Assembly: GCA_026874595.1 (NCBI GenBank)
Contig: CM049319.1
Coordinates: forward strand, 38,323,473 to 38,387,472
Reading direction: 5' to 3'
Length of the DNA: 64,000 nucleotides
From: Sipunculus nudus
Lineage: Eukaryota; Annelida; Sipuncula; Golfingiida; Sipunculidae
The translations under genes and the position numbers were made by a program. This document shows positions 2,071-61,500 of this stretch, piece after piece. The notes under the pieces are model-generated. The model was not told the DNA's origin, made no database searches, and was given only the letters and a program-made list of their open reading frames with translations. Every line of letters begins with the position of its first letter. Positions within the stretch are counted from its first letter, which is position 1.

Positions 2071-2187
2071 CAAGCTGCTGGAAGAGTTTGGCCACAGATG
2101 TCTGTGTTGTGGGTACAGTTGACCACAAAGGTGGCTGTAACGCCTGTCTGTCACCCGCTCCTATTGAAAAACGCACCTGGGGACCAC
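2071..2187 (-). CDS. Sbf: SBF exon 5 (cDENN)
   Basis: 117-bp exon with acceptor TTTACAG and donor GTAAGA. It encodes [20 protein letters not shown] then [19 protein letters not shown] plus one base of Gly. The GAGDRQ...Q.PL...P.....V..LF.QLG pattern is diagnostic for SBF1/2. The entry phase complements the single base left by exon 4. The next exon should be left of coordinate 1. Confidence 0.93.
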
Positions 2188-5100
2188 CTGTAAATAAAAA
2201 TAATGAAGTCATCCAATTCAATCATCTTTATCTGCAAAACAAACAACTTACATTGCCATCACAATAATCCCAGTAAAATCATTACTTCTGTACAGATATT
2301 TTGTACTCTGATAGAATTACAGTTTTGCTTAAGTAATACTGTCATTGTCAAAGTAACATCATCACCACCAAGTGAATTATTCATTCTGTGGTTCACTTAC
2401 TTAGTGGGGTGATTTATAACAATCACACCCTTATCAAATTTCCCGCTACAACAACACATTTTTATTACAATACACTTTTCAAAAGGCCAACAAAGTCAAG
2501 AAAAACAAGTGATCACCATGATCAGGTCTGGTGGACCAGTAATTTAGACCAGTCATCACTGCTAATGATATGTGTGATCACCATGATCAGGTCTAGTGGT
2601 TCAGTCATTAGGCATGACACTACTAATGGAATGTGTGATCACCATGATCAGGTCTGGTGGACTAATCATTAGGCATGACAATGCAAATGAAATGTGTGCT
2701 CACATTTATCAGGTCTGGTGGTTCAGTCATTAAGCATGACAGTGCTAGTGAAATGTGTGATCACCATGATCAGGCTGGTGGCTGTGCCAGCCTCATGCAA
2801 CTCTTCAGGTCTCAGGTCACATGAACCATTGAAATGCTTAATTTGACATAATATGTTATAAATTAAATATAAAAGAATACTGTTACCTGGAGGTGGCACT
2901 TGTATACACCCAAGTATATTGCCAACAAGTGTTTCCAGCTGAACTTGCATATTTTCTATGTACACAGTATAAAATAGTCCCAAACATGTCTGCAAATATA
3001 TAAAAGAAACCATCACAATGTACACAATATAAATGTCCCAAACATGTCTGCAAATGTATTAAACATGCCATCACAACAGCATCTCAACATAAATCTTTAG
3101 AAGTAAATTATGAAAAATCCTTACTGCCTAATACAGATATCAAACAAAGAGTGAAATGTGATCAGATTGAAATGTTATGTCATTCACACCTAATTCACAG
3201 TTATACACTTCCACTGTGAACACAGTCTTACACAACCTCCATCTGTTCGTCTGCCATGGGTTAAAATCAACCATATCTAAGCAGTGGTTTGACTTATCTC
3301 CCTTAAATTTTACAAGTGTACAATTCTTGGATAGATTTCCCTTTTATATGACTGGTGGCGCAACCAGCTATCACGTTTTAACTGCAGACATCCATGCTTA
3401 TATCCCAGGACTAGTTTGAAGTATTAGCTCTAAAATTTATATGTGTATACATCTAACATAGCTCTTTATCATAAAAAAAACTTGTGGCACCACCTGCAAC
3501 TAATTTTGCATGGTATCAATCTGTTTGTTTGTCTAGGGTAAAATTCACTCATATCTTGAGAGTGGTTTAACTTATCCACCAGAAATGTTTGCATGTGTAC
3601 ATATGTCTTATAGATTTTTCACTGCATTGGCAGCTGAGGCCATGTTTAAACATGTTAACACGGCAGACATCCATGTTAATATCTCAGAACTGGTTTGACT
3701 TAATGGCCTGAAATTTTATGAGTATAGACCTTACGTAGCTCAACAGCTTAAATAAATTTGGTGACCCAAACTACAAAAATTTTTGCATAGTGTCAATCTG
3801 TTCAATTGCCTAGGGTAAAATCACTCATATCACTGCAATGGTTTGACTTATCCACCTGAAATTTTGCACATGTATACATTTTGGATAACTTTCTAGTTAA
3901 AATGACAGGTGGCACAACCTGCAATCATTTTAACGTGGCAGAAATTCATACTATTATGCAACACGTCTCACTCTATTTCCCCTTATCACAATCCATGCCT
4001 CACTTCAGCCATACAACTCTGATTTCTGTGGATACACATAGTCGCTTATTGACCACCTTTATTCTAGCTACAAAACCTTCTTACTCTGCAGCCATGAATA
4101 CATGACTCTAATCCGCTGATCTTAGTAATGACCCTAGTCATATTGAAAACTCCACTGGGAGGGCCATCCATTCTACTGCAATTATATGTCTGCACAGTGC
4201 AGGAAACGTTACTTTTAGGTTAAGAGTGAAGAAGTAAACAAAAGAATACAGGTGAATGTATAAACCAAGGTATAAATCTCAATAAACAGCCATATGTTAG
4301 CAAAAGGAATAATGCTGCTGCTTACTCTGAATGTGTCCAGGTATTTTAGCCTGGACACCAGTGCCAGACTCTTTGGTGCGTAGAGTTGTGAGTGTGGTAC
4401 TATATCCGATTCCTCCTCATCCCCATCCTCATCGTCATGGTTACTTGGTGAGAGGGAGACAGGCTCATGAAAAGTCAAACAAGCACAGTAGTGCCTGTTT
4501 GCATCTATGTCTGTCAGGACTGAGACAAAATATGTGGGTGGCTGCTTCACCTTTGAGAGCTGCCATCCTGATGGCTGGCAAAACTGAAAATGACAAATAA
4601 ACATTCAGTCTGTACCACTGAATCTCATGGATATAAACCAAGATTACTTTGTATATGAGTATATACACTTAACATCCTTGAATAATGCAGCTAAGCAAAC
4701 TGCCATTAATTTTTTATAATCAAATGCAAAATATTTATTGAGAAGCCTTGAAAATGACAATTATTTAGCTTTTAGAAAGGGTTAGGCCTTCCTAGACTGC
4801 ATGGAGTTGATCACTGTGACCAAACTCTAAGCCCCAGGGATTAATCAAACTAAGTCTGCTGTTTCAGCTGGATAGAGGGCCAGACAGGAGCACAGCAGAC
4901 ACAGACTGATATAGTTCAGCATGACTCGGATGACAAATCAAAGGCAGAACTAAATGTCATATAAAAGTGGAAAAGCCATATAATAGTGATCCCAGCTGAC
5001 ATATGTTCTCACTGAAATCAAAATCAACTGGAATGGCTTTGTTTTTGCAGGCAGATAAACACATATAAGGTTCCCTCCTAATCAGTGATCTTAGAATATG

Positions 5101-8100
5101 AAGGGTAAAAATATGCACAAAATTATTAAGGTGTTTGGGAAAACATATAAATCTAAAACTGTGACCTTGAAGATCAAGGTGAAGGTCACCAATTTCTATG
5201 AGAATATGATGAATAATACTTGTTTTAAACAAGAATAAAAGATATACAGTATTTAAAAATTATGTGGGTCACAATAAATCTAGAATACTGCAGATATGAC
5301 CTTGATCAAGCTCAGTGGATGGACCACTGGTAAGGAAAATCCTTATTCTTCTTGAATACATTCTATTTTCCATTAGTTCACATTAATCTACACACTACTG
5401 ACATGTATTAATTATTAGCCTTGTTTTATACTGTAACATGGATAACAAAATTATGAAGCTGCCATTGTGGGATGACTTTCATTTTCATAAAAAACTATGA
5501 GCCTTTGCCCGCTGCATCACTGATGCTGTTATCCACATATTATCACCCATGATTACCCCTGCCCAGCAATGGCTCAGGTGTCTTTAGCAAAGACAGCTTC
5601 ACACATGTTACCATGCTTCTGGATGTCCATACAAAAATTAATTGTGTTAACTTAAGATTGTTCCAATGATTATATTAAAGATTCCAGATAAATTCAAGGA
5701 GAAACTAACTTAATTGACAAAACACATACCTAAGAATTACGCGTTAGCTCACACTTGGGATCTCCATAAACTAATGAAGTCATGCTGATGAGTTTCATGC
5801 TGTATCAATTAGCACCAGGCTTATCAGCGGCAACTCTGTGCCTTTGACCAGCATGTTTTTTTCCTAAACCAGCAACATTCCACAGGGCAAGACCCTGAGA
5901 TGTATTTCCACTTATATAACCTCCTTATTTAGCTATATGAGGGTGGCAATGGTCTCCTACAGGCTGGCATACTGACTTGACATTTACTATTATGCAGTAA
6001 TACATTATGGAGCTAGGAGATATAGTTACATACTTTGACTGTGATAACATACCATTTCAATGCCCATGTGAATTGACAGTCATCCCAGCCTTTACTTCTG
6101 TGAGACAGATTTTGTTATAAACTTTGACTGTGATAAAATACCATTTCAATGCCCTTGTAAATGGACAGTCATCCAAGTCTTTAATTCTGAGAGATGGATT
6201 TTGTTATAAACTTTGACTACGACAACATACCATTTCAATGCCCATGTGAATAAACAGTTATCCAAGTCTTTACTTCTGTGAGACAGATTTTGTTATAAAC
6301 TTTGACTGTGATTACGTACCATTTCAATGCCCATGTGAATGGAAAGTTATCCCAGTCTTTTCTTCTGTGAAACAGATTTTGTTATATACTTAAACTGTGA
6401 TAACAAACCATTTCAATGCCCATGTGAACGGACAGTCATCAAAGTCTTTACTTCTGTGAGACAGATTTTGTTATAAACTTTGACTGTGCAAACATACCAT
6501 TTTAATGCCCATGTGAATGGACAGTCATCCCAGTCTTTACTTCTGTGAGACAGATTTTGTTATATACTTTGACTGTGATTATGTACCATTTCAATGCCCA
6601 TGTGAATGAACATGCATCCCAGTCTTTACTTCTTTGAGACAGATTTTGTTATATACTTTGACTGTGATTATGTACCATTTCAATGCCCATGTGAATGAAC
6701 ATGCATCCCAGTCTTTACTTCTTTGAGACAGATTTTGTTATATACTTTGACTGTGATTATGTACCATTTCAATGCCCATGTGAATGAACATGCATCCCAG
6801 TCTTTACTTCTGTGAGACAGATTTTGTTATATACTATGACAGTGAAAACATACCATTTCAATGCCCATGGTAAAGGGACAGTCATCCCAGTCTTTCTCTG
6901 GGAATCTCTGCAGGATGTAGCCACCACTCTTCCCACTGCCTGTAACACACAAAGATCCACAAGTACACATATCGTATATCTTGATCTCATGCCTGTGCAT
7001 TTTTTTTATTTCAGACCCTTCTTTCACCTGGCTATTTTAAAAACAAGCAGGCTTCTATTTAAGGCCATCATTTATAAATCCAGGGGCCCTTGGATCAAGT
7101 CTCACAGGTGAATTATGGAAAATTGTAGCAAATGCAAAATATACTATATTTTACATATATTATATTATTTGAAAAGCTGAGAGGAAATAGCATTGCTAAC
7201 TGGTGATAATCAAATATTAAATACATATTCATCCAACAATACTGTGCACTTTAAGGACTATATCTTAGATACAGGAGTCAATCATGATCAAATATTTCTA
7301 GAAGTATCATCATTTCAGCTATGTAACAGTAATATGTGCATAAATAACCATGGAAATGTATGAACATAAGTCAATTATAGAATAAGGAAGGAGGTGGGGA
7401 TTAGCTAAGTATAATAATACAAATTTAATTTATTCACTGAAATAGAATTCTGTAAAAAAAATTTTTTTTAATCCATTTTCAAATTAGCATTAACGATATC
7501 TGATAAGTATATACTGTACTGTGTAAAACATGAAAGCTGTGCCTGAGAGTTATACGACAGGATACATTTGACCAAAAAAATGTGTCAATGTTATTATTAA
7601 GCCTGGATGATGACAGTCAGAGAGAGACAAAGTGAGAGAGAGAAAGAGAGAATAAGAGAGAAAGAGAGACAGAGAGAGAGAGAAAGAGAGAGCCTGGGGG
7701 AGCATTCAACAGTGCTTTTAGGAAAAAAGTTGTAACAGAGATGGACAGACAGAGCTGATCCAATTTTGCTGAGGCAAGAATATATGTTTCAATAAGATCC
7801 TAATTTTTAGCTTGGCTGACTGAAAGTCATCTTAACTAATATAAGAACTATAATAATAAGAACTATAATAATAACTTTGTCTGTCATCCGTCTGTCTGTT
7901 AAAAGGGCACAAATCATAACTGCTGGACCTTGAAACTTCTAACTGAAAACTCATAAAGGTTTCTAAATAATCTCCTTGGAAACCTGAAATTTATTGATTT
8001 ACAGGCCTAATGCAATGGGTTATACATCAGGTATAATGCTTCCATGCTGGACCATACATTTTTAGTACATGTGTGATGTGTATTATAAGTACAATGCAAT

Positions 8101-29366: not shown

Positions 29367-30303
29367 TATATACATGTATATAAGTAATCCAGAATACCAT
29401 TCCTGTTCCTTGGATGCACTTCTGGTTTGATAAGCCTTGTTAAGTGGAGTGTGTGCTTAGCTCTATGTCAGGGCAATTGGTTTCTCAGACAGTGGGTCAG
29501 GTTTCCTGGTCATTTTGGGTATGCCTCGACAAAGTTTGCACAACAGTTACTGGGACAAGCTGTCAACCAAGCGGTGAAATCTAAAATTAAAGTATTGTAT
29601 TGATATCATTTACTGTCATATTTGACACTGGTATTTTCTGTATCAGGATATAAGTCAATCAATTCAATTAGTATATTTGCTGTCATTCGAAAAGTAGCTC
29701 AGCAGTCAGGTTTGTAGCTCGTTGCTTGTTCAGTGTTGCTTTGCGAAAAGATAGACCGCACACACTAGTCTATGTTACAATTTTGCAAATACTGCAACAG
29801 ATTTACACACTGGTTTTCATAATTGAAAATCAAATAATTAATAATTTTTTCAAGGTTGGCTTAAATGCCCCTGATAATGATATCATATTTGCTTTCTGAC
29901 AGTGGATTCCAGTTATGGGTTTCCACAACAACAAACGGCCCAACCCACCACACAACGTCTGGTCTGGTTCACAACTTCCTATCACTAATTACCCATATTT
30001 ATACCAGGTTTACCGTTGGATCAACATCTACAAGTAAGATCCGAGGTCTATTATGTTTTGGAGAGCTTTGAGCATCTGACAGATGTGCAAGCGGAGGCTG
30101 GCTGGAATCACTCAATCGGTCTATGATTCCCATCCCCCCCCCCCCCCCCCCCCCCCCTTCCCTTAAAAACAAACCTGTAGAAAAATATTTCCCGCTTCGA
30201 CGGGGGTATCATGAGTTTTCGGCAAAATACTGAATAAAGGGAACTTACGGTCCTTTTCATGATCGTATCCGACGACCAGAAAATAGTCCGCTAAGCGAGA
30301 CAT
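2071..30303 (-). CDS. Sbf: SBF1/SBF2 (MTMR5/MTMR13)-like DENN-domain protein, N-terminal part, exons 1-5 (3' end outside window)
   Basis: SET-binding factors are myotubularin-family pseudophosphatases. They have an N-terminal tripartite DENN module (Rab GEF activity), GRAM, inactive phosphatase and C-terminal PH domains, and act in endosomal and autophagic membrane traffic in complex with active myotubularins. Five minus-strand exons join in frame: start Met-Ser-Arg-Leu-Ala-Asp-Tyr-Phe, then [15 protein letters not shown], then FCQPSGWQL...RHYCACLTF...[14 protein letters not shown], then [12 protein letters not shown], then [14 protein letters not shown]...LFQQLG. Order and spacing match the uDENN and early cDENN of vertebrate SBF1/2. 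The phases agree at every junction: 55+86+258+103+117 bp, about 206 codons. Protostomes usually have one SBF gene, so SBF1 versus SBF2 is not resolved. Intron 1 is 23.3 kb and full of mobile elements. No exon 6 (the region after LFQQLG) is visible at 1-2070, so it should lie left of the window. Confidence 0.92.
2188..2886. repeat. SBF intron 4 with a ~61-bp tandem repeat (about 2508-2782, 5 units)
   Basis: The unit contains 'GATCACCATGATCAGGTCTG' and starts near 2511, 2576, 2637, 2697 and 2757. The rest of the intron shows nothing recognisable. Confidence 0.8.
2887..2989 (-). CDS. Sbf: SBF exon 4 (cDENN)
   Basis: 103-bp exon with acceptor TTTGCAG and donor GTAACA. It encodes [19 protein letters not shown] then [15 protein letters not shown] plus one base. 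It aligns with the LGLIYxIxVE...xxIGNLL segment of SBF1/2. A second copy of the acceptor and first part of this exon lies about 60 bp upstream in gene sense (3015-3075). Confidence 0.9.
3015..3085 (-). repeat. Partial duplicate of SBF exon 4 with its acceptor
   Basis: The plus-strand block 'CCCAAACATGTCTGCAAAT' and its flanks repeat here and at 2979-2998. On the minus strand this recreates a TTTGCAG acceptor and the first codons TCLGxxY, which then break off. It is an incomplete exon copy, not a plausible functional exon. Confidence 0.7.
3190..4110. repeat. SBF intron 3: three diverged ~270-300-bp repeat units
   Basis: Units start near 3230, 3515 and 3780. Each carries 'GTCTAGGGTAAAATC'-like, 'GTGGTTTGACTTATC' and 'GACTGGTGGCGCAACC'-like motifs in the same order. 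The pattern resembles the tandem cores of pearl-like elements. No coding content. Confidence 0.7.
4326..4583 (-). CDS. Sbf: SBF exon 3 (uDENN, acidic loop, start of cDENN)
   Basis: 258-bp (86-codon) phase-0 exon with acceptor TTTTCAG and donor GTAAGC. It begins [19 protein letters not shown] and contains [17 protein letters not shown]. It then has an acidic run ([13 protein letters not shown], about residues 100-112) in the variable loop, and ends [21 protein letters not shown]. The order matches the SBF1/2 uDENN to cDENN boundary, where vertebrate proteins also carry a loop of variable acidity. Confidence 0.94.
4584..6014. other. SBF intron 2, distal part: little recognisable
   Basis: Apart from a short block near 5155-5190 related to the AGGTCA-rich core of the pearl-like element at 20.9-21.8 kb, no gene, RNA or repeat could be recognised. 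Confidence 0.5.
6015..6853. repeat. 89-bp tandem array of degraded SBF exon 2 donor halves (about 9-10 units)
   Basis: The unit contains, on the plus strand, 'ACCATTTCAATGCCCATG' then 'CATCCCAGTCTTTACTTC' then 'GAGACAGATTTTGTTATA'. 'GAGACAGAT' recurs near 6101, 6190, 6279, 6368, 6457, 6545, 6634, 6723 and 6811. On the minus strand each unit matches exon 2 from GACTGGGATGACTGTC to ATGGGCATTGAAATG followed by a GT donor, so the array was copied from the exon and its intron start. One-base deletions break the frame. Three adjacent units (about 6545-6810) are almost identical, indicating recent expansion. Confidence 0.9.
6854..6939 (-). CDS. Sbf: SBF exon 2 (uDENN)
   Basis: 86-bp exon with acceptor TTACAG and donor GTATGT. 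It encodes [19 protein letters not shown] followed by CPFTMGIEM. The RFPEKDW core is a hallmark of SBF proteins. Entry phase 1, exit phase 0. Its donor-side half is the parent of the 89-bp tandem array that begins in the adjoining intron (6015-6853). Confidence 0.93.
7616..7692. repeat. GA-rich microsatellite
   Basis: Imperfect (GA)n with AGAGAAAG interruptions. It lies in SBF intron 1. Confidence 0.95.
7803..7990. mobile_element. Degenerate pearl-like element end
   Basis: Begins with a decayed form of the AGCTCAGCTGACTgtaa... hairpin seen intact at 37807, followed by GTCTGTCATCCGTCTGTCTG and 'GGGCACAAATC'. This is the same module order as the element at 37.8-38.8 kb. Confidence 0.55.
7985..9545. 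repeat. Dispersed repeat, copy B
   Basis: Begins 'GGCCTAATGCAATGGG...ATAATGCTTCCATGCTGG' and carries four GGTGGCACCACC-like sites at about 110-130-bp spacing. It continues through the 'GTCTGCCAAAGCCATAAATA' block to the 'CATTTGCATAAAATTTG' block, in the same order as copies A and C. Confidence 0.75.
9546..11610. other. SBF intron 1 segment with a diverged ~330-bp duplication
   Basis: 'TATTCAAGGTCAAAG' and 'CCCATATCTATACA' recur about 325 bp apart (around 9770/10095 and 9838/10168), suggesting two core units of a pearl-like element at about 9640-10260. From 10300 to 11610 no gene or repeat was recognised. Confidence 0.5.
11611..12005. repeat. 25-bp minisatellite (about 15-16 units)
   Basis: The unit is 'CACAAACACAAAGTGTACAC' plus CCTAA/CCTTA; 'GTACACCCT' recurs every 25 bp (11701, 11726, 11751...). 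Because 25 is not a multiple of three and the unit lacks stops in most frames, long spurious ORFs appear on both strands. Confidence 0.97.
12006..13116. other. SBF intron 1: no recognisable feature
   Basis: Only 'AACAAGAGCCCATGCAAGGT' near 12692, which resembles the left end of the pearl-like element at 13117. No coding signal. Confidence 0.45.
13117..13640. mobile_element. Pearl-like non-autonomous element
   Basis: Starts AACAAGAGCACTGCAAAC. It contains about three core units of 123-143 bp, seen as 'TGACCTCATTAAATATGCAT' near 13168 and 13311 and a diverged copy at 13434, then a GACAGACAGACGGACGGAC microsatellite (about 13567-13588). Core repeats followed by an ACGG-type microsatellite is the known layout of bivalve pearl elements, usually regarded as Helitron-like. 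Confidence 0.65.
13641..16779. other. SBF intron 1: no gene recognised
   Basis: Moderately GC-richer patch at 14400-14760, otherwise AT-rich. 'ACAAGGGACCCATGGGTCACG' near 14982 looks like the edge of another interspersed repeat. Open frames at 14414-14791 (minus) lack homology or a convincing splice context. Confidence 0.4.
16780..18440 (+). mobile_element. Pearl-like element: two ~900-bp core units, GACGGACA microsatellite, terminal hairpin
   Basis: Two diverged core units start near 16790 and 17720 ('GATTAAATCCTTATG'). They share 'GGCCCATAACTT', 'ATCAGTGGTTTTGATATTAG' and 'GACCCAATTTTTGG' in order. The first is interrupted by the MITE at 17188-17463. The end carries (GACA/GACGGAC)n at about 18325-18390 and a near-palindromic 29-bp hairpin at 18407-18435. 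That hairpin matches the reverse complement of 37807-37835 at 28 of 29 positions. Confidence 0.7.
17188..17463. mobile_element. PIF/Harbinger-like MITE, copy 1 (276 bp, TSD TAA)
   Basis: Terminal inverted repeats of about 34 bp begin GGCCAAAAAAAA and end in ATGGTTCTCAGGCAC; the right end is the inverse. It is flanked by TAA at 17185-17187 and 17464-17466. A GGGCGGGCGG run lies inside the left TIR. A 3-bp TAA/TTA duplication is typical of PIF/Harbinger. The second core unit of the host element lacks this insert, which confirms the boundaries. Confidence 0.85.
18610..20663. mobile_element. 2.05-kb TIR element flanked by TA
   Basis: 25-bp terminal inverted repeats at 18610-18634 (CCGTAAAATCTCCACTTAAA...) and 20639-20663 differ at one position. 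Both are flanked by TA (18608-18609, 20664-20665), as expected for Tc1/mariner-type insertion. The interior is less AT-rich and CpG-bearing, with a 27-bp palindrome. No transposase is visible, so it would be non-autonomous, or two solo ends could have been juxtaposed. Confidence 0.6.
18962..18988. repeat. Perfect 27-bp palindrome (13-bp arms, 1-base centre)
   Basis: GGCGGTATCCAGG, A, CCTGGATACCGCC. It lies within the 2.05-kb TIR element. Confidence 0.95.
20815..21806 (+). mobile_element. Pearl-like element with three ~300-bp cores
   Basis: The ends carry inverted AGCCCTCAGCC (20819-20829) and GGCTGAGGGCT (21793-21803). Three core units of about 300 bp start near 20930, 21231 and 21531. They share 'GGTTCCTGAG', 'AGGTCAAGGTCACC', 'CTTGACCGAGATTTTGT', 'GATATCCCGCTCACAA' and GGTGGCGCCACC. 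The third is cut short and followed by an (ACGG)n-type microsatellite (about 21752-21788). 'AACTAATTCAC' occurs on both flanks (20754-20764, 21810-21820) and may be a target duplication. Confidence 0.8.
21821..23869. other. SBF intron 1: nothing recognised
   Basis: No exon, RNA or repeat recognised. Short open frames at 21842-22877 show no conserved motif. Confidence 0.4.
23870..25740. repeat. Dispersed repeat, copy C
   Basis: Begins 'GGCCTAATGCGAACC...ATAATGCTTCAATGCTGG'. It shows the same ordered blocks as copies A and B, including an internal duplication of the 'CAGTCTGCCAAAGCT' block (about 24440-24640) and 'TGCGCCACCAATACATCAAT' near 25310. Confidence 0.75.
25741..28645. other. SBF intron 1: AT-rich, a MITE fragment and a G-run element end
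   Basis: 26310-26397 matches the GC-rich end of the 17188/31395 MITE family (GCCGCCCACCCACCCGCCC ... AACATAATTAATTTTTTTGCC). 28063-28095 carries a decayed pearl-type hairpin (AGCTCATCATGACTGaaaGT...). 28380-28397 is an 18-base G run, followed at about 28449 by CCCCCTCTGGATCCGCC, an end of the GGATCCGCC family. No gene seen. Confidence 0.55.
28646..28965 (-). pseudogene. MULE-type transposase remnant
   Basis: Minus-strand frames give [11 protein letters not shown], then after a frameshift [20 protein letters not shown] and [19 protein letters not shown]. The 'IGxDxExxxxxAxxxxFPxAxxLxCxxHxxxN' layout matches the central region of MULE-like transposases found in invertebrate genomes (acidic residue in the D-x-E segment, then the C-x-x-H motif). 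The reading frame is broken upstream and ends soon after, so it is a dead fragment inside SBF intron 1. Confidence 0.6.
28972..29063 (+). other. Exon-like segment, unidentified
   Basis: A 92-bp open segment lies between a CTCCTTTTCAG acceptor and a GTAAGA donor on the plus strand, antisense inside SBF intron 1. One frame reads [20 protein letters not shown] then [10 protein letters not shown]. No family recognised. It could be an exon of a nested gene, part of the adjacent mobile element, or chance. Confidence 0.25.
29331..29361. repeat. (TA)n microsatellite
   Basis: Uninterrupted TA dinucleotides within a longer TATATACAT-rich stretch. Confidence 0.95.
29903..30033 (+). other. Exon-like segment, unidentified
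   Basis: A 131-bp segment is bounded by CTTTCTGACAG and GTAAGA on the plus strand. The frame starting at its first base is fully open: [20 protein letters not shown] then [20 protein letters not shown] then NIYK. It has a coding-like composition but no recognised family. It ends about 215 bp from SBF exon 1, antisense to it. A different frame is also open, so reality and phase are uncertain. Confidence 0.3.
30134..30157. repeat. Poly-C tract (24 bases)
   Basis: Uninterrupted C run in SBF intron 1, close to exon 1. Confidence 0.97.
30249..30303 (-). CDS. Sbf: SBF exon 1 (coding part, start codon)
   Basis: Minus-strand ATG at 30303-30301 opens [18 protein letters not shown] and ends with one base (c) before a GTAAGT donor (intron bases at 30248-30243). 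That base joins the first two of exon 2 to give Arg19, continuing [13 protein letters not shown]. The peptide corresponds to the conserved SBF amino terminus (M-x-R-L-A-D-Y-F). The exon is short and 23.3 kb from exon 2, so ordinary gene finders would miss it. A 24-base C run (30134-30157) lies about 90 bp into the intron. Confidence 0.88.
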
Positions 30304-43442: not shown

Positions 43443-46400
43443 AACTGTTGGTTATTTTTAATCATGTTTATTAATGTTCAGTGATCTGTTGATTATTTTT
43501 AATCATGTTTATAAATGTTCAGTGATCTGTTGGTTATTTTTAATCATGTTTATTAATGTTCAGTGATTTGTTGGTTATTTTTAATCATGTTTATTAATAT
43601 TCAGTGATCTGTTGGTTATCTTTAATCATGTTTATTAATGTTCAGTGATCTGTTGGTTATTTTTAATCATGTTTATTAATGTTCAGTGATCTATTGGTTA
43701 TTTTTAATCATGTTTATTAATATTCAGTGATCTGTTGGTTATCTTTAATCATGTTTATTAATGTTCAGTGATCTGTTGGTTATTTTTAATCATGTTTATT
43801 AATGTTCAGTGATCTGTTGGTTATTTTTAATCATGTTTATTAATATTCAGTGATCTGTTGGTTATCTTTAATCATGTTTATTAATGTTCAGTGATCTGAT
43901 GGTTATTTTTAATCATGTTTATTAATGTTCAGTGATCTGTTGGTTATTTTTAATCATGTTTATTAATGTTCAGTGATCTGTTGGCTATTTTTAATCATGT
44001 TTATTAATGTTCAGTGATCTGTTGGTTATTTTTAATCATGTTTATTAATGTTCAGTGATCTGTTGGTTATTTTTAATCATGTTTATTAATGTTCAGTGAT
44101 CTGTTGGTTATTTTTAATCATGCTTATTAATATTCAGTGATCTGTTGGTTATCTTTAATCATGTTTATTAATGTTCAGTGATCTGTTGGTTATTTTTAAT
44201 CATGTTTATTAATGTTCAGTGATCTGTTGGTTATTTTTAATCATGTTTATTAATATTCAGTGATCTGTTGGTTATCTTTAATCATGTTTATTAATGTTCA
44301 GTGATCTGTTGGTTATTTTTAATCATGTTTATTAATGTTCAGTGATCTGTTGGTTATTTTTAATCATTTTTATTAATATTCAGTGATCTGTTGGTTATCT
44401 TTAATCATGTTTATTAATGTTCAGTGATCTGTTGGTTATTTTTAATCATTTTTATTAATATTCAGTGATCTATTGGTTTTCTTTAATCATGTTTATTAAT
44501 GTTCAGTGATCTGTTGGTTATTTTTAATCATGTTTATTAATATTCAGTGATCTGTTGGTTATTTTTAATCATGTTTATTAATGTTCAGTGATCTGTTGGT
44601 TATTTTTAATCATGTTTATTAATGTTCAGTGATCTGTTGGTTATTTTTAATCATGTTTATTAATATTCAGTGATCTGTTGGTTATCTTTAATCATGTTTA
44701 TTAATGTTCAGTGATCTGTTGGTTATTTTTAATCATGTTTATTGATATTCAGTGATCTGTTGGTTATCTTTAATCATGTTTATTAATGTTCAGTGATCTG
44801 TTGGTTATCTTTAATCATGTTTATTAATATTCAGTGATCTGTTGGTTATTTTTAATCATGTTCATTAATGTTCAGTGATCTGTTGGTTATTTTTAATCAT
44901 GTTTATTAATATTCAGTGATCTGTTGGTTATCTTAAATCATGTTTATTAATGTTCAGTGATCTGTTGGTTATTTTTAATCATTTTTATTAATGTTCAGTG
45001 ATCTGTTGGTTATTTTTAATCATGTTTTTTAATGTTCAGTGATCTGTTGGTTATCTTTAATCATGTTTATTAATATTCAGTGATCTGTTGGTTATTTTTA
45101 ATCATGTTTATTAATGTTCAGTGGTCTGTTGGTTATTTTTAATCATGTTTATTAATGTTCAGTGATCTGTTGGTTATTTTTAATCATGTTTATTAATGTT
45201 CAGTGATCTGTTGGTTATTTTTAATCATGTTTATTAATGTTCAGTGATCTGTTGGTTATTTTTAATCATGTTTATTAATGTTCAGTGATCTGTTGGTTAT
45301 CTTTAATCATGTTTATTAATGTTCAGTGATCTGTTGGTTATTTTTAATCATGTTTATTAATGTTCAGTGATCTGTTGGTTATTTTTAATCATGTTTATTA
45401 ATATTCAGTGATCTGTTGGTTATCTTTAATCATGTTTATTAATGTTCAGTGATCTGTTGGTTATTTTTAATCATGTTTATTAATATTCAGTGATCTGTTG
45501 GTTATCTTTAATCATGTTTATTAATGTTCAGTGATCTGTTGGTTATTTTTAATCATTTTTATTAATATTCAGTGATCTGTTGGTTATCTTTAATCATGTT
45601 TATTAATGTTCAGTGATCTGTAGGTTATTTTTAAACATTTTTATTAATATTCAGTGATCTGTTGGTTATCTTTAATCATGTTTATTAATGTTCAGTGATC
45701 TGTTGGTTATTTTTAATCATTTTTATTAATATTCAGTGATCTGTTGGTTATCTTTAATCATGTTTATTAATGTTCAGTGATCTGTTGGTTATTTTTAATC
45801 ATGTTTATTAATATTCAGTGATCTGTTGGTTATTTTTAATCATGTTTTATTAATGTTCAGTGATCTGTTGGTTATTTTTAATCATGTTTATCAATGTTCA
45901 GTGATCTGTTGGTTATTTTTAATCATGTTTATTAATATTCAGTGATCTGTTGGTTATTTTTAATCATGTTTATTAATATTCAGTGATCTGTTGGTTATCT
46001 TTAATCATGTTTATTAATGTTCAGTGATCTGTTGGTTATTTTTAATCATTTTTATTAATATTCAGTGATCTATTGGTTTTCTTTAATCATGTTTATTAAT
46101 GTTCAGTGATCTGATGGTTATTTTTAATCATGTTTTTTAATGTTCAGTGATCTGTTGGTTATTTTTAATCATGTTTATTAATGTTCAGTGATCTGTTGGT
46201 TATTTTTAATCATGTTTATTAATGTTCAGTGATCTGTTGGTTATTTTTAATCATGTTTATTAATGTTCAGTGATCTGTTGGTTATTTTTAATCATATTTA
46301 TTAATGTTCAGTGATCTGTTGGTTATTTTTAATCATGTTTATTAATATTGAGTGATCTGTTGGTTATCTTTAATCATGTTTATTAATGTTCAGTGATCTG

Positions 46401-47956
46401 TTGGTTATTTGTAATCATGTTTATTAATGTTCAGTGATCTGTTGGTTATTTTTAATCATGTTTATTAATATTCAGTGATCTGTTGGTTATCTTTAATCAT
46501 GTTTATTAATGTTCAGTGATCTGTTGGTTATTTTTAATCATGTTTATTAATGTTCAGTGATCTGTTGGTTATTTTTAATCATGTTTATTAATATTCAGTG
46601 ATCTGTTGGTTATCTTTAATCATGTTTATTAATGTTCAGTGATCTGATGGTTATTTTTAATCATGTTTATTGATGTTCAGTGATCTGTTGGTTATCTTTA
46701 ATCATGTTTATTAATGTTCAGTGATCTGTTGGCTATTTTTAATCATGTTTATTAATGTTCAGTGATCTGTTGGTTATTTTTGATCATGTTTATTAATGTT
46801 CAGTGATCTGTTGGTTATTTTTAATCATGTTTATTAATGTTCAGTGATCTGTTGGTTATTTTTAATCATGTTTATTAATATTCAGTGATCTGTTGGTTAT
46901 CTTTAATCATGTTTATTAATGTTCAGTGATCTGTTGGTTATTTTTAATCATGTTTATTAATGTTCAGTGATCTGTTGGTTATTTTTAATCATGTTTATTA
47001 ATATTCAGTGATCTGTTGGTTATCTTTAATCATGTTTATTAATGTTCAGTGATCTGTTGGTTATTTTTAATCATGTTTATTAATGTTCAGTGATCTGTTG
47101 GTTATTTTTAATCATTTTTATTAATATTCAGTGATCTGTTGGTTATCTTTAATCATGTTTATTAATGTTCAGTGATCTGTTGGTTATTTTTAATCATTTT
47201 TATTAATATTCAGTGATCTGTTGGTTTTCTTTAATCATGTTTATTAATGTTCAGTGATCTGTTGGTTATTTTTAATCATGTTTATTAATGTTCAGTGATC
47301 TGTTGGTTATCTTTAATCATGTTTATTAATGTTCAGTGATCTGTTGGTTATTTTTAATCATGTTTATTAATGTTCAGTGATCTGTTGGTTATTTTTAATC
47401 ATGTTTATTAATATTCAGTGATCTGTTGGTTATCTTTAATCATGTTTATTAATGTTCAGTGATCTGTTGGTTATTTTTAATCATTTTTATTAATATTCAG
47501 TGATCTGTTGGTTATTTTTAATCATGTTTATTAATGTTCAGTGATCTGTTGGTTATTTTTAATCATGTTTATTAATGCTCAGTGATCTGTTGGTTATTTT
47601 TAATCATGTTTATTAATGTTCAGTGATCTGTTGGTTATTTTTAATCATGTTTATTAATGTTTAGTGATCTGTTGGTTATCTTTAATCATGTTTATTAATG
47701 TTCAGTGATCTGTTGGTTATTTTTAATCATGTTTATTAATGTTCAGTGATCTGTTGGTTATTTTTAATCATGTTTATTAATGTTCAGTGATCTGTTGGTT
47801 ATTTTTAATCATGTTTATTAATGTTCCGTGATCTGTTGGTTATCTTTAATCATGTTTATTAATGTTCCGTGATCTGTTGGTTATCTTTAATCATGTTTAT
47901 TAATGTTCCGTGATCTGTTGGTTATCTTTAATCATGTTTATTAATGTTCAGTGATC
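43443..47956. repeat. 4.5-kb satellite of 41-bp monomers (about 110 copies)
   Basis: The monomer is GGTTATTTTTAATCATGTTT plus ATTAATGTTCAGTGATCTGTT. The array length divided by 41 is almost exactly 110. Two linked variant types alternate: 'AATGTTCAG...GGTTATTTTT' and 'AATATTCAG...GGTTATCTTT'. The second often recurs every third monomer. A terminal subset carries GTTCCGTGATC (about 47823-47930). Not coding. Confidence 0.98.
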
Positions 47957-49563
47957 TTTTTATTATTCATGTATTTACTTCTTCTGTGGGGTGTAAACAG
48001 AGTACTTTCTTTCTCCAGGGGGCCCCACTATCACTGAAGGGTGAGGGCTACATGAGAATCTTCATATAATTGAGCACACAGATGCCACCTGTAATGAAAA
48101 TTGTAAATTACTGTAACTGCAAGTGGCGATAACAGCAGTTGGGTAACTGGACAAAGGGTCAACGGAGTAACAGTATAGGGGTTGTTATAACTTGGGGTAA
48201 AATTATGTTATAGGCCTACATGTATCAGAATCTTACAAAATTATAGGGACCTACAGGTCTACGTGACACTTTGCACATAATAAACATAAACGGCGGAGCT
48301 TTGCAGGCTCCGACTGCATAATCTAGTTTATACAATTGATTTTAATATTGTATTTTTATTAGAAGTGTGTACAGTTTACATAAGTGTTTATCCAGGGCTG
48401 TCTCGTGGGAGTGGCAGAGAACCAGACAAGGGCACGATACATTATAATTAATGTGGTGATACCACTAACAGCCGGTATTGGCGAGGTCACTCCGGCCGGC
48501 CTGATGTGCAGGTTCATGGGCTGTAATAAATAAACAGTCAGCACGTGTACTGCCCGGAGAGAACTCAACAGGTCACATGAATGATATCAGTGGCTATCGA
48601 GAGGAAACTCACCATTCATTTGTTAGATAACTATAGATATATATCAGACCTACAGCTACAGGTCAAGTCTCTAGGCGAATGTTCCATAGCTTACAGCCGG
48701 ATGATTTGCTCTATGGAAGTCAAATTAGTATGAAGTGACTAATATCCAGTCATGTTGAATAAGTAACTGATACTGACTAGTGAACGCTGCAGGCGCGAGT
48801 GCATGCACATGTATATGCTACTCAAAGCCTACAGGGTCTACACCTTAGATCATATCATATGTCATGGTATTGATAGTAATGTTGGGAACACTTTAATACT
48901 GCTTCTATATACGATGAATGAATGATATATTGAATATTGTATAATAGAGTTAAAAATACACGAAGTGGTGTTTATATTAACTGTGGAGCTCCTAAATTGT
49001 ACATGGATAATGTCTATTGATTTTATATTGGCTACTGCAAAATACGGAAGAAAAACATGTGATAATTTAATTCGTATTCATAAACAGCTTATAAGATATA
49101 AATGGCCCAGTAAACTTAACAAAATAAATAATTTGATTTTTCAGTCAATGCTTTGATAGTCCAGTTATGGGATTTAATGAATGTTTTAAATATTCGATGC
49201 AGAAATAACATATTGGATACCACATACATGTATATTAGAACCAATGTGCATGTGTATATTGTTGACTTTGTTAACACGTAATTTAATACCTTTTTACATT
49301 TAATTTGCGGTAGGCAATCTATTTCAAGGACCGAGAAAATTTAGATAAAATTTTTATTTGATATTATGAAAAATCCAAGTAATATACGAAATTGAAATTC
49401 CTTCACAATATTTAAATTTTCTATACATAACATTATTTTATTTATTACATTAACTGCCATCTTCTCATGGAACACATTAACAGTAATTAATGGTTGTAAT
49501 TATTCTAAAAAAATACATAATTTGAAATGACCAGGACATCGTCACGGTACGGTCTGCTTGCAC
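47957..49563. other. Intergenic: nothing recognised
   Basis: Short random frames only; no repeat family recognised. Confidence 0.4.
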
Positions 49564-50436
49564 CCAACATAACTCTAAAAACTGGTTAAAAAGGTTATAA
49601 TGCACAGCATTAAAACCAACATAACTCTAAAACCTGGTTTAAAACATTTAATGCACAGCATTGAAACCAACATAACTCTAAAACCTGGTTTAAATTGTTA
49701 TAATGCACAGCATTGAAACCAATATAACTCTAAAACCTGGTTTAAAACGTTATAATGCACAGCATTGAAACCAACATAACTCTAAACCCTGGTTTAAAAC
49801 GTTATATATATTGCACAGCATTGAAACCAATATAACTCTAAAACCTGGTTTAAATTGTTATAATGCACAGCATTGAAACCAACATAACTCTAAAACCTGG
49901 TTTAAATTGTTATAATGCACAGCATTGAAACCAACATAACTCTAAAACCTGGTTTAAAACATTATATTGCACAACATTGAAACCATCATAACTCTAAAAC
50001 CTGGTTTAAAACATTATAATGCACAACATTGAAACTAACACAACTCTAAAACCTGTTTTAAACATTATGCACAACATTGAAACCAACAAAACTCTAAAAC
50101 CTGGTTTAAAACATTATAATGCACAACATTGAAATAAAAGTAACTCTAAAACCTGGTTTAAAACATTATAATGCACAGCATTGAAATCAACATAACTCTA
50201 AAACCTGGTTTAAAACGTTATAATGCACAGCATTGAAACCATCATAACTCTAAAACCTGGTTTAAAACATTATAATGCACAACATTGAAACCAACATAAC
50301 TCTAACCTGGTTTAAAACGTTATAATGCAGAGCATTAAAACCAACATAACTCTAAAACCTGGTTTAAAACGTTATAATTCACAGCATTGAAACCAACATA
50401 ACTCTAAAAACTTCATGGTTAAAACGTAATAAAGCT
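49564..50436. repeat. 52-bp minisatellite (about 16-17 units)
   Basis: The unit is CCAACATAACTCTAAAACCT plus GGTTTAAAACGTTATAATGC plus ACAGCATTGAAA. It has small deletions and a TATATAT insertion near 49805. Confidence 0.97.
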
Positions 50437-52974: not shown

Positions 52975-53690
52975 ATTTCTGGCCGTGTTAAACACAAGCT
53001 ACATTTCTTACCGAGTTAAACATACGTTTCTTGGGGTATATTTCTGGCCGTGTTAAACACAAGATACATTTCTTGAGATATATTTCTAGCCGTGTTCAAC
53101 ATATGTTTCTTGTGGTATATTTCTGGCCTTGTTAAACACAAGATACATTTCCTGAGGTATATTTCTGGCCGTGTTCAACATAAGTTTCTTGAGGTATATA
53201 TTTCTGGCCGTGTTAAACATGATATACGTTTCTCGAGGTATATATTTGGTCGTGATAAACGTAAATACGTTAATTGAGGTATATATCTGAATTTATAAAA
53301 CATAAGATACGTTTATTGAGGTATATTTATGGATGTGTAAAACATAAGACACGTTTATTTAGGTATATTTCTGGATGTGTAAAACATAAGATACGTTTAT
53401 TGAGGTATATTTCTGGATGTGTAAAACATAAGATACGTTTATTGAAATATATTTCTCGTGGTGATAAACATAAGATACTAGTATACGTTTATTGAGGTAT
53501 TTTCTAGATGTGTAAAATATAAGATACGTTTATTGGGATATTTTTCTGATCGTTATAAACATAAGATACGTTTATTGAGGTATATTTCTGGATGTGTAAA
53601 ACATAAGATACGTTTATTGAGATATAATTCTGGTCGGAATAAACATAAGATACATTTATTGAGGTATATTTCTGTCCATGCTGAATTAGA
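52975..53690. repeat. 42-bp minisatellite (about 16 units), partly open as a 14-residue repeat
   Basis: The unit is GTAAAACATAAGATACGTTT plus ATTGAGGTATATTTCTGGATGT. Because 42 is divisible by three it reads (YISGCVKHKIRLLR)n over three interrupted stretches. Left units use TTTCTGGCCGTGTTAAACA, right units TTTCTGGATGTGTAAAACA. There is no evidence that it is translated. Confidence 0.95.
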
Positions 53691-55127: not shown

Positions 55128-56012
55128 AATCTAGACAGACTATGGTAATCTCCTGGGTCTATGTTAGCCTACACAGGCTGCGTTGGTCCCGTGTAACTAT
55201 GTTAACCTAGACAGGCTGTGTTGAACCGTATGTCTGTTTTAGCCTTGGCAGGCTGTATTGACCCCGTGTGTCTCTGTTAGCTTAGACAGGCTGTATTGAC
55301 CATGCGTGTCTGTTTTAGCCTTGTCAGGCTGTGTTGAGCCGTGTGTCTGTGTTAGCTTAGACAGGCTGAGTGACCCATGTGTCTCTGTCAGACTAGACAG
55401 GCTGTGATGATCCCGTGTGTCTATGTTAGCTTAGACAGGCTGTATTGACCCGTGTGTCTATGTGAGCCTAGACAGGCTGTGTTGACCCGTGTGTCTCTGT
55501 TAGCCTAGACAGGCTGAGTGACACGTGTGTCTCTGTTAGCTTAGACAGGCTGTATTGAGCATGTGTGTCTATGTGAGCCTAGACCGGCTTGTGTTGACCC
55601 GTGTGACTATGTCAGCGTTGACAGGCTGTGTTCAACCGTGTGTCTGTTTTAGCCTTGTCAGGCTGTGTTGAGCCGTTTGTCTGTGTTAGACTAGACAGGC
55701 TGAATGACCCGTGTGTCTATGTTAGACTAGACAGGCGGTGTTGATCCGTGTGTCTGTGATAGCCTATACAGGCTAAGTGACCCGTGTGTCTCTATTAGTC
55801 TAGACAGGCTGTGTTGATCGTGCGTGTCTCTGATAGCCTAGACAGGCTGAGTGACCCTTGTGTCTCTGTTAGCCTAGACAGGCTGTGTTGACCCGTGGGT
55901 CTCTGTTAGCTTAGCCAGGCTGAGGGACCGTGCGTGTGTCTCTGTAAGCTAAGACAGGCTGTATTGACTCCGTGTGTCTATGTGAGCCTAGACAGGCTGA
56001 GTTAGCCTAGAG
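55128..56012. repeat. 37-bp minisatellite (about 23-24 units)
   Basis: The unit is TGTGTCTCTGTTAGCCTAG plus ACAGGCTGTGTTGACCCG. Units vary (AGCTTAGACAGG, AGCCTTGTCAGG) with small length changes; stops occur in all frames. Confidence 0.96.
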
Positions 56013-58065: not shown

Positions 58066-58113
58066 GTTGCCTAGGTATACCCCTCTAGGCTTGGATAAAC
58101 AACAGCCGCCACC
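58066..58113 (+). other. SLC28 5' leader segment after a likely splice acceptor
   Basis: AATAATTTCAG ends at 58065, suggesting a non-coding exon further upstream. The start codon context GCCGCCACCATGA is a textbook-strong Kozak sequence, which supports translation from 58114. Confidence 0.65.
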
Positions 58114-58577
58114 ATGAGCAAGTTCATCCTCCCTCCCGGGGTTAGCAGCACAACTCAAGTTCAGTATGAAAACCACGCCTACGACGGGGATCCAAACATG
58201 GTGCTGAACAGTAAACTCCCCAACGACTACCAGATGCCCACGACCTCCGACCGTGACAGTGTCAGTGTCGAGGATGACGGCAGACCCAAGGGCTGTGTGC
58301 GCAAATTTCAGTCGACAACCGCCAGCTTCTGTCGCAGGAACAGTAGCATTATCTCTAAACTGGTGCTGCTTCTATTGCTGGTGGCTTACACCATCTACTT
58401 GGGGTTCGCCATCAGCCACAGCGTGAGGAACGCCACTGCTCTGATCGTCATTACCGCCATCGTGGTTTTCTTCGTCATTTACTACACCATCCAACATTAC
58501 TTCGGAGATATCATCAACAGCAAATTTCTCTCACCTCTTGGAAACTTTCTAACAAAGGCATGGCCTTACATGAGGTG
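58114..58577 (+). CDS. SLC28A-like: SLC28-like exon 1
   Basis: 154 codons plus two bases of Trp155; donor GTAAGT at 58578. It encodes a hydrophilic N-terminal tail with YENHAYDGDPN and an RKFQSTTASFCRRN basic stretch. TM1 (KLVLLLLLVAYTIYLGFAI) and TM2 (ALIVITAIVVFFVIYYTIQ) follow. Its GC content is clearly above the flanking introns. Confidence 0.93.
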
Positions 58578-61500
58578 GTAAGTTATATCAAATGCTCTAG
58601 ATATTTCAGGGCTTTAACACAGGGTAAGGACATTTTCAAAAGCTAACTTGCGCTGAGGGCGGCCAGGCAGGGTGGATTTGATGCACTCGTAAAAATTAAT
58701 ATCTGTATTCAACCATTGGGATGCATGATTATTTTACAATTTCATGAAAGTAAATCAATTCTTGAATATGTAATTTTATAGTTGGACATTAACAGGGAAA
58801 AATAACTTGATATCTTTAAATGACATACTAATAATACTATAGATCTACTTTAACGGTACACAAATTACTGAGAAATTTTGTTGTTTGCAGGTTTTTGGTG
58901 CCTGCTGTGTTTCTGCTGTTGATCATGTATCTGATTTTCTCGGTGATCGAGGAATTTAGACAACTTCAGTCAATATCCGGTATGGTCGTCATCATCGCCC
59001 TCACGTATCTGTTCTCAAAACACCCAGACAAGGTGGGCTGTCATTTTAACACCTATAAACCCCTCTGTCTTCCTGTTTGGAATTTAATCACCTATCTTAT
59101 ATATAAAACCCATCATTGATAAAATACAATCCTGACGCTGTAGATCATCTGCCAATAAGAAAGATTATATTTAGTTTAATGTTAAGGTATGATTATCGTC
59201 TGAATCTCCCGTATCTAAAATAAATCCTAAAACGAGATTTTAAATTTATCATTGAACGAAATTTCAAAATTTCACATTTAGTGTAGATAGGAACATGATG
59301 GTGGATAAATAAAAAAAAAACATTTCTGAGACATTGTTATGTAGTTATGAATAAATCTTTTAAAAAGCAGAATATTGTTACTAGGGTCTTAAAAATAGTG
59401 TACCTTTTAAACATTAAAATTTTTTAAAATGTTAGAAAATCATGTGATTTTAAGAAGTTAAAAAATCTGTATACTATTATAAAGTTCACTATAACCAGGT
59501 TTAAAATCATGTATACTTTATGGGGTTTCATGTTAATATAAACTACATTTGAACTGGTTTTAGATTTATGGGTTTTAGACAATAATAATCTAAACTAAAT
59601 AAATAAATCACGCATTTGAACAAGAAGTAGCGTGAAGTAAGCCGAACTGTAGTATAATTTATCAAAATACCTACACTTAATATGCTATCGTTGGAAGCAA
59701 TGTTGGTTTAGATTCTTTCTGTTCATGTTTTGAAGTGAATTTTCACATAGTCATCCTTGCGAAATAGGACGTGATAAAAAAGTGAATATAATGAAAAAGT
59801 AAACCAACATGGCAATCACAATTGTAAGGTGTTATAAGTGTGAACATCCCAAATTCATCTTCGGGTTGAGCTCTCTGAGCATCTGTAATTTATGCTAGTG
59901 TTTAACCATCAGAACATCCGTTATTCGTTTTCTTTTAAAGCCATCAGAACATCTGTAATACATGTTCGTGCTGAACCACAGAACATTCGTAATTCGTTTC
60001 CGTGCTTGGCCATCAGAGCATTCGTCTTTCATTGTCGTTTTGAGCCTTAAAACATCCGTAATTGATTTTCGTGCTGAGCCATAAGAAAATCCTTGATTCA
60101 ACAGAGCATCCGTGATTCGTTTCCGTGCTTGGTCATCAGAAGATCGTTTATTTAACAGAAATCCATATTTCATTAACGTGCTCGGCCATCAGAACATCCG
60201 TAATTCGCCGTCGTGTTGAGCTATTAGAACATCCGTGTTTTATTTTCATGTTGAGCCATCAGAACATCCGTAATCATGTTCGTGCTGAACCATCGGAACA
60301 TCCGTTATTCGTCTTCGAGATCAGACATCAGAACATTCGTAATTCATCTTCGTGGTTAACCATCAGAATATCTGTATACATCTTCGTGGTAAGCCATCTG
60401 AGCATCCGTGATTCGTCTTCGTGTTGAGCCATCAGAACATCTGTAATTCATCTTCGTACTTAACCAAGAGATAAACATTTTCGTGCTGATCCATCAGGAA
60501 ATTCTTAATGCAACAGAGCACCCGTATTTCATTATATTGCTTGACCATCAGAACATCCGTAATTCATCTTCGTATGGAGCCATCATAACATCCTTAATTC
60601 ATCTCCGTGTCGAGCCATCAGAAAATTCGTGATTCATCTTTATTGCTTGGCGTGCATCAGAACATTTGTAAATCCTCCTTAGTTCTTTTCTGCCAGACAC
60701 AACCGTGCTTCCTCGTCATGCCTGGACGTCAGTAATTCCGTAATTTATTTCCGTGGCTAACCAGAAATGACGCAGTAACCTTTAACCACCAGAATGTTCA
60801 CACATCACTTGTAAGCATGTATATCACCAAGTAATCCTTGCCCATTGGAACGTATGTAAATCTCCCAGATTTCTCTAACCACCAGAACGTCGGTAAACCA
60901 GTCGTTAATGCCTAATAGCAGGGAAGTATATGTACAATGAAAAGCCTTAAGTTTAACCCTGGAACTTACCTGTTTCCGTCCGTGTGCTGATCAGGTGCGA
61001 TGGAGGCCTGTGGTAGTCGGGTTCACCATGCAATTTGTTATGGGGATTCTGGTTCTCCGGTGGCGGCCTGGATACGAGATCGTCAAGTGGCTGTCTGATC
61101 AGATCACCACCTTCATTGGCTACTCAAACGAGGGCGCCGCGGCTGTGTTCGGGGATCCCTTCATGCTGTTCCATCCGTTTGTCTTCGTGGTGAGTTTAAA
61201 AAAATAAAGTGAAAAAAATGTTATTCATATTTTGGCTTGAACGTATAAACAATAGGTTAAGCAACCTCTTCCTAATCATTTCATTCTTGACTGGGTATAC
61301 ATTAGGAAAACTAAGTATACTGACCCCATTCCAGACCTGTTGACGTGAATAGATGCCTTTGCTTGTGTTCCGAAAATTTGTAAACGGTTTCCTATGGACA
61401 TAATGGCCTGTTTTAGTTTTGCTGTAACCAAAGGCGCTAGAATAGCTATAAGGGTAGATTTCGGTTATCTTTGTTACTTTTCTGGGTCATTTCCATATAA

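Follow-up and report, generated by a model that had tools for sequence, protein, structure and literature searches.

An SBF gene on the minus strand of the window

The DNA analysed here, called the window throughout, is a stretch of 64,000 nucleotides (C14:38323473-38387472) within a 1.43-Gb genome. Its minus strand carries the 5′ part of a gene in which exons 2-5 encode uDENN and DENN domains (joined exons against Pfam, 3e-22 and 1.4e-13, respectively). A genome search for the SBF2 domain (PF12335), in which the best candidates were scored, returned four matches, all on C14 and 12-16 kb past the left end of the window; two myotubularin-domain matches lie further along C14 on the same strand as the SBF2 matches. 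On the basis of these SBF2 and downstream myotubularin-domain matches, we assigned the gene to SBF (SET-binding factor, MTMR5/13-like). No second SBF gene copy was found among the best candidates of the SBF2 search. The protein encoded by exons 2-5 had no relative in PDB at E 0.01, and Rfam at gathering scores gave no matches in the window.

The coding part of exon 1 (30249..30303; this and all following exons are on the minus strand) ends at the donor C/GTAAGT, where the slash marks the exon-intron border, in a phase compatible with exon 2 and followed by an intron of ~23.3 kb. Exon 2 (6854..6939, 86 nt) ends ...MGIEM in phase 0 at the donor ATG/GTATGT and is in phase with exon 3 (4326..4583, 258 nt), across an intron 2 of 2270 nt. 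Exons 4 (2887..2989, 103 nt) and 5 (2071..2187, 117 nt) follow, and the ten introns measured between exons 1 and 11 range from 489 to ~23,300 nt. We infer from the frame and the domain match that this first donor of exon 2 is the one used. On the plus strand, a 160-amino-acid open frame with a hydrophobic segment (58099-58581) had no Pfam match; it presumably resembles the start of a nucleoside transporter.

An 89-bp array built from the end of exon 2

Intron 2 begins, directly after exon 2, with a tandem array that Tandem Repeats Finder (TRF) placed at 6018-6895 (period 89 bp, 9.9 copies, 89% matches), the high end of which is the end of exon 2 itself. We divided it into nine units on the minus strand (6006..6806, from u1 at 6718-6806 to u9 at 6006-6094), each composed of exon tail, donor and intron start, with the parental copy at the exon preceding u1 and the distal end of u9 departing from the consensus. 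The homology starts at about AAAGACTGGG in exon 2, crosses the donor and extends ~47 nt into the intron; it takes in the last ~42 nt of the exon. When the exon-donor segment was compared with intron 2 by BLAST, nine matches of 77-89 nt were recovered with 82-91% identity and 73-119 bits, and two further matches (9 and 11 nt, <18 bits) were at chance level. The best match in 200 letter-shuffled introns reached 27 bits, compared with 119 bits for the real sequence. The first-pass annotation had described a satellite of about 9-10 units, copied out of the donor-side half of an SBF exon and lying in the adjoining intron, and the alignment bears out each of these points. The units lie head to tail at a constant period, as in a minisatellite.

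Compared with exon 2, every one of the nine units lacks the same single base. Since this 1-bp deletion is common to them all, and the alternative of an insertion into exon 2 would have broken its reading frame, the units most likely descend from a single founder copy. The three units nearest the exon (u1-u3, 6540..6806, minus strand) are almost indistinguishable: u1 and u2 agree at 89/89 positions, u3 differs from them at one (88/89), and all three carry the hexamer GTACAT instead of GTATGT. The remaining pairs share 72-82 of 89 positions, and pairs that include u9 share 65-69. This pattern suggests that the latest expansion was recent and local, adjoining exon 2, as had been proposed from the near-identity of three units. 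The longest unchanged run within the unit (10 columns) was not unusual (P = 0.18).

Splice-like signals within the units

The units carry a series of putative decoy donors between window positions 6052 and 6764 on the minus strand. A GAAATG/GT site had been reported in every unit; the GT is indeed kept in all nine, the full motif is present in eight, and positions +3 to +6 are altered in six. The parental ATG/GTATGT survives in u4, u7 and u9; the changed hexamers are GTACAT in u1-u3, GTTTGT in u5, GTACGT in u6 and GTATTT in u8. The companion claim of a CTCACAG acceptor-like site in each unit did not hold: the motif is exact in u3, u4, u6 and u8 only, takes the forms TTCACAG in u5, CTCTCAG in u7 and CTCAAAG in u1 and u2, and is missing from u9.

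The stretch from acceptor-like motif to next donor is nevertheless 45 nt in 9/9 units, matching the ~45-bp pseudo-exons described earlier. Every one has an in-frame stop in addition to the shared deletion, in keeping with the view that the units are non-coding; the TAA noted before lies at codon 2 in eight units, and the stop comes later in u6. Inclusion of any of the nine would thus bring a premature stop, as expected of a poison exon, with donor hexamers and acceptor-like sites that vary within the array. Use of the first decoy donor would lead to a stop codon starting at intron nucleotide 25. The units do not qualify as duplicated alternative (mutually exclusive) exons, comprising only half an exon with a 1-bp deletion and stops.

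Junction-spanning duplications recur at other exons

A same-strand self-comparison of the SBF gene (16 mapped exons, or 22 partly overlapping rows once Pfam hits were added) revealed four exons with junction-spanning duplications. Besides the nine copies of the exon 2 donor, these are a 58-bp tandem at exon 4 (2958..3076, minus strand) that provides one extra acceptor copy upstream, five 72-bp copies of the exon 11 donor (L011:355-751) and a single copy of the exon 15 donor (L010:6713-6808). Splicing to the extra exon 4 acceptor would lengthen the exon by 58 nt and disrupt the reading frame. The exon 9 donor, with just a 25-nt local match around it, was not counted. Repeats are common in this gene more generally, as 115 of 300 random intronic 150-nt segments matched other sequence on the same strand within 3 kb, a figure that takes in simple repeats. 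Neither exon 4 nor exon 5 matched a 61-bp array at 2509-2781 in a local comparison. Elsewhere in the window, the top-scoring array is a 41-bp tandem at 43445-47957 (110 copies, 95% matches), and further multi-copy arrays lie at 49564-50409 (52 bp), 53022-53674 (42 bp) and 55157-56003 (37 bp).

In other genes, junction-spanning duplications were found at 10 of the 111 exons sampled. Among 23 myotubularin-domain hits there was one acceptor array, on C8, with a 37-bp period and about a dozen copies. The 60 myosin-head hits yielded four donor cases (L044, L055, L066 and L079), including a 36-bp array at L055 with at least 10 decoys, and the 28 UCH hits yielded donor arrays at L105 and L116 and acceptor cases at L100, L108 and L110. 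At L110 (C6:8523022-8523947), the exon head GYVGLVNQAMTCYL and its acceptor occur in three additional copies, 56 bp apart, on the upstream side of the genuine acceptor; the three matches listed are 91.5-96.2% identical. At L105 (C4:55197443-55198452, match on the minus strand), six of eight scored decoys read AAG/GCAAGT instead of AAG/GTAAGT, a pattern suggestive of a single GT-to-GC change that amplification then multiplied. The exon 2 array is therefore not singular; duplications of its class recur within SBF and extend to the myotubularin-, myosin- and UCH-domain genes, affecting about a tenth of the exons sampled in this genome.

Several candidates were set aside. The apparent acceptor-spanning match at UCH L095 proved to be an AT-rich intronic match with a misassigned border, which was reset for the rates below. 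A 35-bp array at C5:30437050 in a myotubularin-domain gene stops short of the acceptor, within the intron, and was excluded, and the duplication at myosin L061 is intronic only. Myosin L080 (35 bp, ~3 nt of exon) is marginal; it is left out of the donor count below, and its one copy is included among the decoys.

Junctions take up duplications at a near-intronic rate

To compare rates, we surveyed 130 exon loci with ±400 nt, consisting of SBF and hits of three Pfam families, the latter sampled regardless of repeats. SBF contributed 19 rows (16 mapped exons and three Pfam hits). The myotubularin sample comprised 23 of 25 PF06602 hits, the other two being on C14 and counted under SBF, and the myosin sample was the first 60 of 75 listed matches. 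For UCH, 55 listed matches were filtered to those of at most 340 nt with at most two stops (39), one longer match was added, and the first 28 were used. SBF exon borders were set by hand; the others were predicted from splice-site weights rather than from transcripts. The donor was unset in 5/130 loci and the acceptor in 1/130.

A local duplication covered the donor junction in 9 of 125 loci (7.2%, 95% interval 3-12%) and the acceptor junction in 5 of 129 (3.9%). By comparison, 8.9% of points in the downstream intron (333/3731), 6.8% of those in the upstream intron and only 0.5% of exon interior points (8/1532) were inside duplications. Bootstrap 95% intervals spanned zero for donor minus downstream intron (-5.6 to +2.1%), acceptor minus upstream intron (-6.8 to +1.0%) and donor minus acceptor (-2.3 to +9.4%), and lay above zero for donor and acceptor minus exon interior (+2.7 to +11.4% and +0.4 to +7.0%, respectively). 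The donor and acceptor intervals are wide and leave room for modest acceptor depletion or donor enrichment. Because SBF had been selected for its array, we also calculated the rates after leaving it out, which gave 6/107 for donors and 4/111 for acceptors. When 124 loci were letter-shuffled to give 372 control sequences, none had a duplication across a junction.

Among 52 decoy donors, 42 retained GT; seven of the ten losses came from the L105 array, six of these being GT to GC. Divergence of decoys from their parents was 8-11% in splice-site columns versus 16-21% in the flanks. We do not read this difference as conservation, as windows centred on the donor can cause it; there may be weak conservation of the splice-site columns.

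Origin and persistence of the arrays

We consider it probable that these observations reflect a genome-wide class that arises by duplication across splice junctions, grows by minisatellite amplification and survives because it is silent to splicing. At SBF, one tandem duplication across the 3′ end of exon 2 and its 5′ splice site would have placed a copy of exon tail and donor just inside the intron. This founder would then have lost 1 bp and grown by minisatellite expansion within the intron into nine units, the three nearest the exon arising last. The copies presumably persist because splicing does not notice them: long flanking introns would favour exon definition, under which the donor nearest the exon's own acceptor would beat identical or weaker copies downstream. 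The relevant passages of Carranza, Shenasa and Hertel (2022, PMC9225289), whose rules come from human sequence, place the switch to exon definition at an intron length of ~250 nt, which all ten measured SBF introns exceed. In the minigenes described there, the upstream of two identical strong donors was used exclusively when introns were long; with both donors weakened, larger exons were skipped and smaller ones kept the upstream preference. Across all human alternative events, the same passages give a ~60% preference for the downstream donor, reversed only at near-equal strengths.

Junction-spanning duplicates that are nearly silent in this way would drift and amplify as other intronic minisatellites do. 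In a gene with introns this long, a donor-spanning duplication is expected not to alter the mRNA; this would account for junctions appearing to be duplicated about as often as introns, with exon bodies nearly free of duplications. The first-pass annotation had suggested an effect on the splicing efficiency of exon 2; the near-intronic rate and the altered donor hexamers in six of nine units point to an array that is close to neutral for splicing, and our sequence analyses of the array and the sampled loci found no evidence of a regulatory role for the duplications.

A regulatory reading would have the array act as a poison-exon rheostat, in which decoy donors and stop-bearing 45-nt pseudo-exons send some SBF transcripts to decay, to a degree set by copy number. 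The uniform length of the pseudo-exons and the stop in all nine fit this idea, as do the parental 9-mer donor in u4, u7 and u9 and the recent expansion of u1-u3. We regard it as distinctly unlikely, however, given that the hexamers at the donors have accumulated changes (5 events over 6 columns, versus 44 over 89 overall) and that u1 and u2, two of the three recently expanded units, read CTCAAAG at the acceptor-like CAG. Because junction-spanning duplications are not commoner than intronic ones, there is also no enrichment in favour of function. The same comparison bears on whether tandem duplication preferentially strikes splice donors as mutational hot spots, through R-loops or replication stalls at exon ends, for instance. 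Donor cases do outnumber acceptor cases (9/125 versus 5/129) and make up three of the four SBF events, but the donor rate of 7.2% is not above the 8.9% of the downstream intron and the donor-acceptor interval spans zero, making such hot spots unlikely.

Duplication outward from the exon also has to be weighed against sources outside it. Local repeats are pervasive (the 115/300 above), and a pre-existing satellite or mobile element could in principle have supplied the exon end, rather than the reverse. We find this scarcely credible and take exon 2 as the older partner because it encodes part of the uDENN domain in phase with its neighbours, SBF2 was found in one gene only among the best candidates scored, and a search of the 1.43-Gb genome that skipped very common words gave no further match to the array. 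The identity of u1 and u2 might instead suggest an assembly artefact of collapsed or falsely repeated reads, but other unit pairs differ at 8-19% of positions (22-27% for those with u9) and cases of the same class, with other periods, occur at unrelated loci, leaving an artefact very improbable.

The generality of the class, rather than the exon 2 array alone, is its main interest. The rates suggest that a splice junction need not bar tandem duplication, donors being hit at close to the intronic rate and exon interiors hardly at all, which is relevant to intron lengthening and to the possible seeding of new splice sites or introns. The loci also form a natural cis series of competing donors and acceptors, from two to more than ten similar sites, that could serve as a test bed for exon-proximal versus intron-proximal choice in an animal genome. 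A bolder proposal, which we think unlikely, is that the splice junctions of this lineage are a standing source of intronic minisatellites (at ~1 exon in 10, some with at least 10 decoy donors) whose copy number varies between individuals and measurably tunes exon recognition or transcript decay.

Relation to known systems

We recognised no report of junction-derived intronic arrays in the open-access literature, which is weak evidence given our narrow search terms. Intronic minisatellites and VNTRs share the traits of the exon 2 array, such as its 89-bp period, ~10 units and near-identical neighbours; the SBF unit differs in being a fragment of the adjacent coding exon with its donor. In human, tandem arrays with splice sites reportedly became introns, to go by the title of Zhuo et al. 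2007 in PNAS. Judged by that title, those arrays carry splice sites like those of SBF, whereas at SBF the repeats form a stretch of decoys that follows an old exon. Tandem duplication is an established source of introns, according to the pertinent parts of three papers (PMC3443670, PMC2891723 and PMC4974935). As described in the portion of the last that concerns potato RdRp, a tandem duplication with splice signals crosses an intron-exon border, as at SBF, but there it produced a new intron and an altered gene structure; at SBF no new intron is evident, and the copies were amplified to many units inside an existing intron. The same architecture appears in the passages of PMC9225289 cited above, namely identical donors in series behind an exon flanked by long introns. 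Those donors were engineered in pairs in minigenes and assayed in transfected cells, whereas the arrays described here are natural and offer from two to more than ten putative donors.
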